From: Campylobacteraceae bacterium
GTDB taxonomy: Bacteria; Campylobacterota; Campylobacteria; Campylobacterales; Sulfurovaceae
Length of the DNA: 64,000 bases
Assembly (NCBI GenBank): GCA_027035765.1
Contig: JALVUD010000044.1
Span: forward strand, 1 to 64,000
Direction: 5' to 3'
Shown: positions 39,970-43,920 of the stretch, in pieces
Numbering within the stretch: position 1 is the stretch's first letter
Layout of the letters: every line of letters starts with the position of its first letter
The notes under the pieces: generated by a model
The model's input: the letters and a program-made list of their open reading frames with translations, nothing else
Databases searched by the model: none
Told to the model about the DNA's origin: nothing
Translations under genes and position numbers: made by a program

Positions 39970-42900
39970 TTACGCTCCTCGCTTTTTCATCACCCACCAT
40001 TCGAACCATTTGTACAATTCTACCACTACAAAGAGCGGCACGGCCACGGCGAAGATCATTCCCCAGTCCTCGAGCCGCAGGGGAACGGTATGGAGTGCCT
40101 TCTGGAGGAAGGGCACATAGACCGCCGCCACCTGCAGCCCCACTGTCACCGTCCAGGCCCCCAGCACCCAGGGGTTGGAGAAGAAGCCGATCACCGGCAT
40201 CGGGGCCCGGAGGCTCCGGTAGTTGAAGACGTTCATCTTCTCCAGAATGATGATGCCGGTGAACGCCACCGTCTGGGCCAGGGCCACCGCCTGCGCCTGG
40301 GGCAGTCCCGACGCGAGATAGTGGTGGAAGAGCCACAGCGTTCCGCCCCCGATCCAGCTCCCCAGCAGGATGATCATGATGATCCCCCGCAGCTGGAGGA
40401 AAGGAGCGTTGACCGAACGGGGCGGGCGCTCCATGATCCCCTTCTCCGCCGGTTCGAGCCCCAGGGCCACCGCCGTCATCCCGTCGGTCACCAGGTTCAT
40501 CCACAGGATCTGCACCGGCAGCAGGATCAGCGGTCCCCCCAGAAGAATGTTGACGAAGATGGCGATCACCTCCCCGGTGTTGGAGGAGAGGAGATAGGTG
40601 ACGAACTTTTTGATGTTGTCGTACTGACGCCGCCCTTCCCGTACCGCACCGATGATGGAGGCGAAATTGTCGTCCAGGAGGATCATGTCGGCGGCCCCTT
40701 TGGCCACGTCGGTTCCCCGCTGCCCCATGGCGATCCCGATATCGGCCCGTTTCAGCGCCGGGGCATCGTTGACTCCGTCTCCGGTCATGGCGGTCACGAG
40801 CCCTTCGTCCTGCAGGGCCTTGACGATCCGCAGTTTGTCCCGCGGGGTGGTCCGGGCGAAGATCACCCCCTCTTTGAGGGCGGTCCGCAGCGCCTCGTCG
40901 TCCATCCCCGCCAGTTCGTTACCGGTCACCGCCCGGGGGGCGTCCAGCCCCACTTGCCGGGCGATGGCTAATGCGGTCAGTGGCGCGTCGCCGGTGATCA
41001 TGATCACCTGGATGCCGGCCCGGCGTGCCGTGGCGATCGCTTCGGGGACTTCGGGGCGCGGCGGATCGATGATCCCTACGACCCCGAGCAGCGTCAGGTC
41101 TTTCTCCACATCGTCCGGATCGAGCTTCGTCTCCTCGGGCAGGATCCGCTTGGCCAGGGCCAAAGTCCGCAGCCCCGACTTGGCCAGTGAAACATAGGCT
41201 GCTTCGAAGCGTTTGCGGGCCGCATCGTCCAGCGGCTTCTTCTCGGTTCCCTCCAAGTACCAGGCAGCCCGCTCCAGGAGTACTTCGGGCGCTCCCTTGA
41301 CGTAGGCGACCTTCTGACCGTTCTCCTCTACCACCACGGTCATGCGCTTGCGCTGGGAGTTGAAAGAAAATTCGCTGATCACCTTCGGTTCTCCCGGGCT
41401 GAGCCACGCCTTGTACGCTGCGACGATCAACGCCGCCTCGGTGGGCTCGCCGGTGATCTTCCACCCTGCTTCCTCTTTGCTCAAAGAAGCGTGGTTGCAC
41501 ACCAGACCGGTTTTGAGCAGGAGCTGCAGATCTTTGCGGGCTTTGTAGTTGACCCGCTTTCCGTCCGCTTCGAAATGTCCCGCCGGATCGTAGCCGCTGC
41601 CGGTGACATCCACCGCTCCGCCGAAGAGCCAGATCTTCTGAACCGTCATCTGGTTCTGGGTCAGGGTCCCGGTCTTGTCGGTGCAAATGACGTTGGCGCT
41701 ACCCAGATTCTCCGCCGCCTGGAGCCGCCGCAGCAGGGCGTGCTGGCGTACCATCGCCTTGACCCCCAGGGCCAGGGTGATCGTCACCACCGCCGGCAGC
41801 CCCTCGGGGACCACCGCCACCGCCAGAGAGATACCGGTCAGGAACATCTCCATCAGATCTTTGCCGAAGAGATAGCCCACGATCGCCACCAGTGCCGAGA
41901 TGGCGATGGAGAGGATCCCCAGTTTCTTGCCCAGAACGGCTAGCTTTTTCTGCAGGGGGGTACGCGTCTGTTTCACTTCGCTGGTGAGGCGGGCGATCTT
42001 GCCGAACTCGGTCGCCATCCCCGTGGCCACCACCACGCCACGGGCGTAGCCGTTGGTGACGCTCGTTCCCATCCAGACCATGTCGCTCCGCTCCGCCAGC
42101 GGCGCCTCTTCGGGGACCGCCTTGAGACTCTTGGCCACCGGAACCGATTCGCCGGTGAGAGGCGATTCGTCCACTTTGAGGTTGACCGCCTGCACGAGCC
42201 GCAGATCGGCCGGCACCCGGTCGCCGATCTCCAGCAGGACGATATCCCCAGGGACCAGCTGCGTCGCCTCGATCTGGCGCTCCTTCCCTTCCCTGAGGAC
42301 CCGGCACTGGGGAGAGAGCATCCGCTGGAGCGCCTCGATCGCCTTTTCGGCCTTGAACTCCTGAACGAAGCCCAGGATTCCGTTGAGGATGACGATGGCC
42401 AGGATCGTGAGGGCATCCCCCATCTCCCCGATGGCGAAGGAGATCCCCGCCGCCACCAGCAAAATCAGGATCAATACGTCGGTGAACTGCCGCAGCAGGA
42501 TCCAGTACCACTTCTCCTTGTGGACCGCTTCGATCCGGTTGGGACCGTAGATCCCCAGCCGTTTCCGCGCCTCCTCGTCGTCGAGACTCTTTTTCGGATC
42601 GGTGTGCAGCAGTTCCAGCACCGCCTGGAGGGGTTTGGCGTGCCAGGGAATCTCCGCCTCTTCGGGTGTCTGCGGAGCGGCACCGGAGGCCGGAAACGCC
42701 ACCGGTGCGGAGCGCATGAGATCTTCCCGCCACCGGACCACCAGAACCGAGAAAAGGAGCGGCACGACAATCGTGGAGACCGACGAGGCGGCCACCAGGG
42801 CGGTGAAAAGCTGGGTATCGATGAGCTTGGCATCCAGCAGAAGCTTGGCGACGATGATCTCGGTAGTGAGCCGGGCGTTGAGGCCGATCCCGATGGTCCA

Positions 42901-43920
42901 GGCCTCTTTGATGGTAAGCTTTTTCATGGGGACCATCAGGAAGATCCCGACCAGTTTCCCCACGAAGGCGGCCAGAAAGAGGAGGATCGCCAGCTCGGGT
43001 GCCTTGAGCATCCCCTCCAGATCGACGCTCATCCCCACCCAGAGGAAAAAGATCACCCCGAAAAAGCCGTAGGCCACTGCCCGGGTGGCCCGGTCGGCTC
43101 GCTCACCCGGCTCTCCCGCGGCGTCAAAGACCGGACGCATCAAAATCCCCGCCACGATGGCTCCCACCACGAGGCCCAGATCGGCATACTCGGCAAAGCC
43201 GCCGAAGAGGAAAAGGACCAGGATCATCATCATCACCAGGTTGGAGACTTTGACCTGGGTCCAGTGGGAGAGAGGCACCAGGACGAAGCGCCGGACAAAC
43301 CAGGCAACGACGATGAAGATCGCCACATTCATGGCCACGGTCCATATCTCCCGGGTGTCGCTGGTGACCAGGCCGCTCTTTTCGCTGATCCAGATGGAGA
43401 CGAAGGCGACCAGGAAAACTTCGATCACATCGTCGAGCACCCCGGCCCCGACGATGTAGTTGCCCACCTTGGTCCGCAGCAGCTTGAACTCGTCGAGGAT
43501 CGGGACGATCACCGCTTCGGCCGTGGGCATACGGGTCACTCCAATGACGAAAGCCAGGGTCCAGCCGTACCCCAGCCAGAGCATCACTCCCATCCCCATC
43601 AAAAAAGGAACCGCCGTATTGAGCACCGTCGCCAGGACGATCTCGCCGCTTTGGGCGCGCATCTCCTTCATGTCGATCTGCAGGCCGATGAAAAAGAGGA
43701 GAAAAAGAACCCCCAGGTCGGCCAGCACTGTAAAGATCTCACCGTCGATCCCCCGGGTGAGCAGAGTACCCAGCGGCGTGTAGTGGACCCCCATCGCCAC
43801 GAAGAGCGCCGCAAGGATTCCCGGGATTTTAAGCCGCTCCAGGAACCCGGCCAGAAAATAGCTCAGACCGAACATCAGTGAAAGCAGCAGCAGAAATTCA
43901 CCCAATACCTGATCGTTCAT
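39970..43920 (-). CDS. Fusion of CPA2 Na+/H+ antiporter and SERCA-like P-type ATPase
   Basis: A single uninterrupted 1316-codon frame. Residues 1-398 are a CPA2 antiporter with about 12 membrane spans and the GVLDDV ion site (Asp163-Asp164), as in electrogenic NapA-type exchangers. A linker of about 25 residues (Pro/Ala/Glu-rich) leads at ~425 to a full type II P-type ATPase: N-domain start PWHAKPLQAV, TGES at 589, M4 PEGL at 705, CTDKTGT with Asp748 phosphorylated, KGAPE 875, GDGVNDAP 1047. The metal residues of SERCA are present: Glu706 (M4), Asn1114 and Glu1117 (M5), Asn1142, Thr1145 and Asp1146 (M6). Calcium is the likely ATPase substrate. It starts an operon with the DUF4010 gene. Confidence 0.9.
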   Translation of the reverse strand: MNDQVLGEFLLLLSLMFGLSYFLAGFLERLKIPGILAALFVAMGVHYTPLGTLLTRGIDGEIFTVLADLGVLFLLFFIGLQIDMKEMRAQSGEIVLATVLNTAVPFLMGMGVMLWLGYGWTLAFVIGVTRMPTAEAVIVPILDEFKLLRTKVGNYIVGAGVLDDVIEVFLVAFVSIWISEKSGLVTSDTREIWTVAMNVAIFIVVAWFVRRFVLVPLSHWTQVKVSNLVMMMILVLFLFGGFAEYADLGLVVGAIVAGILMRPVFDAAGEPGERADRATRAVAYGFFGVIFFLWVGMSVDLEGMLKAPELAILLFLAAFVGKLVGIFLMVPMKKLTIKEAWTIGIGLNARLTTEIIVAKLLLDAKLIDTQLFTALVAASSVSTIVVPLLFSVLVVRWREDLMRSAPVAFPASGAAPQTPEEAEIPWHAKPLQAVLELLHTDPKKSLDDEEARKRLGIYGPNRIEAVHKEKWYWILLRQFTDVLILILLVAAGISFAIGEMGDALTILAIVILNGILGFVQEFKAEKAIEALQRMLSPQCRVLREGKERQIEATQLVPGDIVLLEIGDRVPADLRLVQAVNLKVDESPLTGESVPVAKSLKAVPEEAPLAERSDMVWMGTSVTNGYARGVVVATGMATEFGKIARLTSEVKQTRTPLQKKLAVLGKKLGILSIAISALVAIVGYLFGKDLMEMFLTGISLAVAVVPEGLPAVVTITLALGVKAMVRQHALLRRLQAAENLGSANVICTDKTGTLTQNQMTVQKIWLFGGAVDVTGSGYDPAGHFEADGKRVNYKARKDLQLLLKTGLVCNHASLSKEEAGWKITGEPTEAALIVAAYKAWLSPGEPKVISEFSFNSQRKRMTVVVEENGQKVAYVKGAPEVLLERAAWYLEGTEKKPLDDAARKRFEAAYVSLAKSGLRTLALAKRILPEETKLDPDDVEKDLTLLGVVGIIDPPRPEVPEAIATARRAGIQVIMITGDAPLTALAIARQVGLDAPRAVTGNELAGMDDEALRTALKEGVIFARTTPRDKLRIVKALQDEGLVTAMTGDGVNDAPALKRADIGIAMGQRGTDVAKGAADMILLDDNFASIIGAVREGRRQYDNIKKFVTYLLSSNTGEVIAIFVNILLGGPLILLPVQILWMNLVTDGMTAVALGLEPAEKGIMERPPRSVNAPFLQLRGIIMIILLGSWIGGGTLWLFHHYLASGLPQAQAVALAQTVAFTGIIILEKMNVFNYRSLRAPMPVIGFFSNPWVLGAWTVTVGLQVAAVYVPFLQKALHTVPLRLEDWGMIFAVAVPLFVVVELYKWFEWWVMKKRGA

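Follow-up and report, generated by a model that had tools for sequence, protein, structure and literature searches.

Positions 39970-43920 of the window, the 64,000-nucleotide stretch of DNA analysed here, encode on the minus strand a genuine fusion of two transporters, an antiporter followed by a P2A-type ATPase. The gene starts with ATG and runs for 1316 codons as one frame without an internal stop, exactly the frame in which the initial annotation had recognized an antiporter and a P-type ATPase (Table 1). Six Pfam domains are distributed along the protein, all of them scoring above their cut-offs: Na_H_Exchanger at residues 19-394, followed by Cation_ATPase_N (426-494), E1-E2_ATPase (534-725), Hydrolase (744-1060), Cation_ATPase (807-885) and Cation_ATPase_C (1130-1306). 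We rate the fusion as a new combination built from two known kinds of transporter. No paper describing an antiporter-ATPase fusion was found in the open literature, in line with the initial annotation, to which this exact fusion was not known among characterised proteins; neither "fused" nor "fusion" occurs in a recent review of P-type ATPases. The proteins themselves are surely present in automatic annotation. With a primary pump and a secondary antiporter combined in a single chain in five families, and with adjacent gene pairs echoing that arrangement in other phyla, nature offers an experiment on the ways in which cells connect ion export powered by ATP to that powered by protons. The question of pump-antiporter coupling becomes testable in a single purified protein, and DUF4010, a domain of unknown function, gains a concrete partner.

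Table 1. Features of the fusion gene and its downstream neighbour in the window
Feature	Residues	Position	Strand	Basis or remarks
Fusion gene, antiporter + P2A ATPase	1316 aa	39970..43920	minus	full-length homologues
Antiporter half, 13 helices, NapA-like	~1-403	42712..43920	minus	Pfam, predicted structure, alignment
Linker	~404-425	42646..42711	minus	variable sequence, low model confidence
P2A-type ATPase half	426-1316	39973..42645	minus	Pfam, curated models, motifs
ATPase motifs	TGES 589-592; PEGLP at 705 (M4); D748 phosphorylation site; KGAP 875; GDGVNDAP 1047			
ATPase ion ligands	M4 E706; M5 N1114/E1117; M6 N1142/T1145/D1146			
DUF4010 + MgtC membrane protein	421 aa	38703..39968	minus	1 bp past fusion stop codon

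A search of 399 genomes of the window's order yielded the intact full-length fusion in 26 genomes, the window's included, which belong to nine genera of five families (f1, f4, f6, f16, f18); the fusion is thus conserved well beyond one genus. The copies are 58-87% identical to that of the window, and both halves occur in named relatives, among them Nitratifractor, Hydrogenimonas and Campylobacterales MAGs. Eight of the 26 genomes are single contigs, and in these the frame runs open through the linker, where a stop or a frameshift had been envisaged as refuting the fusion. Chance read-through, an assembly error or a frameshift joining two genes could find some backing in two copies carrying 1-nt deletions, one at codon 844 in a Nitratifractor MAG (L025) and the other at codon 438, just past the linker, in a MAG of the window's own genus with 3.2x contig coverage (L031/G314). 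The latter copy, however, carries 39-nt and 9-nt deletions besides, and is therefore a damaged or misassembled one; against the 26 intact homologues, with linkers of some 16-24 residues in those compared, an artefactual origin has a negligible probability and was rejected. Two further copies (G051 and G272) are broken at several places. In these damaged copies decay cannot be told from sequencing error.

Both halves are under purifying selection, with dN/dS values of 0.041-0.123 for the antiporter half and 0.057-0.118 for the ATPase half in seven pairs. In all 26 intact fusions the residues D163, D164, K322, R350 and E354 of the antiporter are invariant, as are E591, E706, D748, K875, N1114, E1117, N1142, T1145 and D1146 of the ATPase, so that the catalytic residues are kept in both halves, as had been noticed from the window's copy. 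The distribution of the fusion is patchy, since three genomes of the window's genus (G005, G055, G251) are devoid of it. The window protein is nearer to those of family f4 (up to 86%) than to those of genus g5 (about 73%), which belongs to the same family as the window's genome, a hint of horizontal transfer. A plasmid or phage origin was also considered and rejected, as no plasmid or phage record covers both halves.

The antiporter half scores 152.5 bits against PF00999 (gathering score 26.2) and 108 bits against the curated CPA2 model TIGR00932, under its cut-off of 238.3. Its AlphaFold model (pLDDT 81.8, pTM 0.78) displays 13 helices, and the best fold match in the PDB is NapA (4bwz; E 6.9e-13, TM 0.74/0.82), which is the best solved relative of this half both by sequence and by fold. 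D163/D164, the ion site correctly placed by the initial annotation, and K322 align with the DD site and the TM10 lysine of NapA, and the three residues are invariant in 36/36 antiporter rows, whether fused, split or solo. With the Asp-Asp ion site and the TM10 lysine, the half carries the site typical of electrogenic DD-type antiporters, and electrogenicity is predicted. Near the DD site, two further acidic residues (E135 and E167) are also invariant in the 36 rows, while the aligned positions of NapA are not acidic; a divalent substrate for the antiporter is possible on these grounds. The Thermus NapA-type Na+/H+ antiporter (4bwz, 5bz2) thus shares with the fusion the 13-helix fold, the DD site and the TM10 lysine, and differs from it in lacking both the additional glutamates and an attached ATPase.

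The ATPase half scores 339 bits against the P-type superfamily model TIGR01494 (HAD-IC; cut-off 62.3). It lies under the equivalog cut-offs of both the PMR1-type model TIGR01522 (771.1 bits versus 798.3) and the SERCA-type model TIGR01116 (675.3 versus 703.4), hence Ca2+ is not certain as its substrate. Domain set and order are in full those of SPCA1/PMR1 (8iww), LMCA1 (6zhf) and SERCA1a, and the DKTGT, located at 748 as first read, the TGES and the PEGLP motifs are common to the P2A Ca2+-ATPases, from which the fusion differs by its N-terminal antiporter. The early proposal of SERCA-like ion ligands holds for M4, M5 and M6, whose site ligands are all present. In M8, near the place of Glu908, there appears to be no glutamate but a conserved arginine, Arg1235, in a match to SERCA M8 made by eye. 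LMCA1 and SPCA1 likewise have a conserved arginine near that place, although they lack the M5 glutamate that the fusion keeps (E1117). Transport of either one or two Ca2+ per cycle would be compatible with the apparent loss of the M8 glutamate together with the retained M5 glutamate.

The two halves are joined by a fast-changing stretch with a pLDDT below 50 at residues 405-423 of the antiporter model. A linker of about 25 residues had been proposed; the linker is indeed present, although its length is rather about 22 residues, since the model places the end of helix 13 at residue 403 and Pfam the start of Cation_ATPase_N at 426. Lysines and arginines of the antiporter number 13 on the C-terminal side versus 5 on the other, which places its C-terminus in the cytoplasm. 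As the N-terminus of the ATPase is cytoplasmic too, the join is topologically simple and needs no extra helix.

A pairing of this kind has a precedent. In the K+ uptake complex KdpFABC a P-type ATPase cooperates with a membrane protein that belongs to a different transporter superfamily; KdpA is channel-like and separately encoded, whereas the partner in the fusion is an antiporter in the same chain. The K+/H+ antiporter KefC (8bxg) resembles the fusion in having a CPA2 fold with a large C-terminal extension. In the fusion the extension consists of a P-type ATPase, and Pfam finds no nucleotide-binding domain of the regulatory kind. Many bacterial CPA2 proteins, those of the KefC type among them, carry a cytosolic regulatory domain at the very spot occupied here by the ATPase, and CPA antiporters such as KefC and NapA are dimers. 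One half could accordingly act mainly as regulator or scaffold, for instance with the antiporter giving the pump dimerisation and pH sensing; nevertheless, the invariance of ion-site and catalytic residues in both halves and their similar purifying selection make such a role very unlikely.

The same two genes are neighbours in other bacteria, unfused homologues existing alongside the fused ones. In three genomes of Aquificota type, G412, G431 and G399 (the last being the Hydrogenothermaceae MAG of L033), antiporter and ATPase are separate genes on the same strand with a 1-nt overlap, and overlapping separate genes are found as well in a Sulfurimonas MAG (L032) and in L050 (G126). Two genomes from the phylum to which the Deltaproteobacteria MAG L034 belongs also have both genes, one as an overlapping pair (G584; antiporter 49%, ATPase 54%) and the other in the order antiporter, UspA, ATPase (G466; 60% and 69%). 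Since the two genes adjoin in these bacteria also, both transporters very probably act together, the repeated neighbourhood plus the fusion being the strongest evidence for it. Trees of both halves divide into two corresponding groups: one comprises 22 fusions, and in the other the fusions of G042, G142, G175 and G197 are mixed with split pairs. Counting by hand on the ATPase tree gives at least three switches between fused and split, whichever of the two is taken as ancestral, and the tree does not decide for or against a single origin of the fusion.

The gene that follows the fusion, at the 1-bp spacing already noticed in the initial annotation, scores above the cut-offs for both MgtC (54.4 bits) and DUF4010 (214.8 bits). 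A DUF4010/MgtC gene is the next one in 24/26 intact fusions, and in G270 and G294 (L045, L046) it is placed about 1.8 kb further on. The split pairs L033 and L050 have no DUF4010 neighbour, but antiporters without an ATPase (L049, L062, L063, L064) are also followed by DUF4010. Its position after the fusions and after these antiporters agrees with its suggested place as third part of the module, and the link between antiporter and DUF4010 is at least as strong as that between antiporter and ATPase, given its presence after ATPase-less antiporters. In one of the latter (L049:6781-8064, G064) antiporter and DUF4010 keep the gene order of relatives with the full fusion while the ATPase half is missing, which looks like loss of the pump. 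The AlphaFold model of the DUF4010 protein is weak (pLDDT 72.2, pTM 0.55) and gave neither a PDB fold match at E up to 0.001 nor a sequence match, so its fold offers no functional clue; nothing of useful content on DUF4010 was found in the open literature.

We propose, as the probable mode of action, that the fusion comprises two tethered but separately energised exporters made at a fixed 1:1 ratio and joined in the membrane by the DUF4010/MgtC protein as a third partner, serving cation and pH homeostasis. In the model, one inner-membrane protein would contain two working transporters. The N-terminal half, a 13-helix NapA-type antiporter, would exchange a cation for H+ at the expense of the proton-motive force, and the C-terminal half would be an ATP-driven P2A pump exporting a divalent cation, Ca2+ or one like it. 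The end of the antiporter and the start of the ATPase would both lie at the cytoplasmic face, a disposition that the short linker could bridge, and both activities would be co-located. We infer the ions, the directions of transport and a tethering that would serve co-expression and proximity rather than direct energetic coupling. Against the model of separately energised exporters stand the antiporters accompanied by DUF4010 without an ATPase, which indicate that the ATPase is not always needed, and the damaged copies in some close relatives.

The pump and antiporter cycles might instead be directly coupled through a shared local ion pool or a handover path, with DUF4010 as a working subunit. 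ATP hydrolysis would then drive a net exchange beyond what either half performs by itself, but nothing in the sequence speaks for such coupling and we consider it unlikely. A particular form of linkage, recycling of the counter-ion, had been suggested at the outset. Export of Ca2+ by P2A pumps is accompanied by H+ uptake, and the antiporter, physically joined to the pump and always at 1:1, would return that H+ in the opposite direction. However, a DD-type antiporter under normal proton-motive force takes H+ in and would add to the proton load, and the DD motif is characteristic of those electrogenic antiporters that are powered by incoming H+. Since both halves usually bring H+ in, recycling would need an antiporter running backwards; the suggestion is left unsupported and appears quite improbable.

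A doubtful, though less remote, reading is that a single divalent cation, whether Ca2+, Mn2+ or Mg2+, is exported through both halves, the ATPase being a high-affinity pump and the antiporter a high-capacity, proton-driven exporter, so that one chain would make a two-range exporter. E135 and E167 of the antiporters, non-acidic in NapA, are consistent with it, as are the DUF4010/MgtC neighbours in Campylobacterota and a NRAMP-family gene adjoining the unfused pair in three Aquificota-type genomes. Conversely, Na+ or K+ is the ion moved by the nearest antiporters of solved structure, MgtC and DUF4010 are only putative in the transport of such ions, and the NRAMP linkage is confined to three related genomes.

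The NRAMP-family genes in question (L089:8763-9983, L087:11654-12874, L088:6524-7744) read GDDPAGI in the first helix, where classical NRAMP presumably has DPGN, and may handle Mg2+ rather than Fe or Mn. The first of these clusters also contains a P3A-type proton-pump ATPase (L089:6093-8762; 958 bits to TIGR01647), and a similar-looking candidate lies at L089:963-3617. In several genomes unrelated to one another, UspA-type genes adjoin either the antiporter or an ATPase related to that of the fusion (L082:1053-1466, L034:6816-7241, L035:8723-9568). Genes of the amino-acid-permease family recur beside the antiporter, both in the Aquificota-type genomes (L089:13995-15587, L087:10057-11649, L088:11779-13377) and in G252 (L061:5812-7167).
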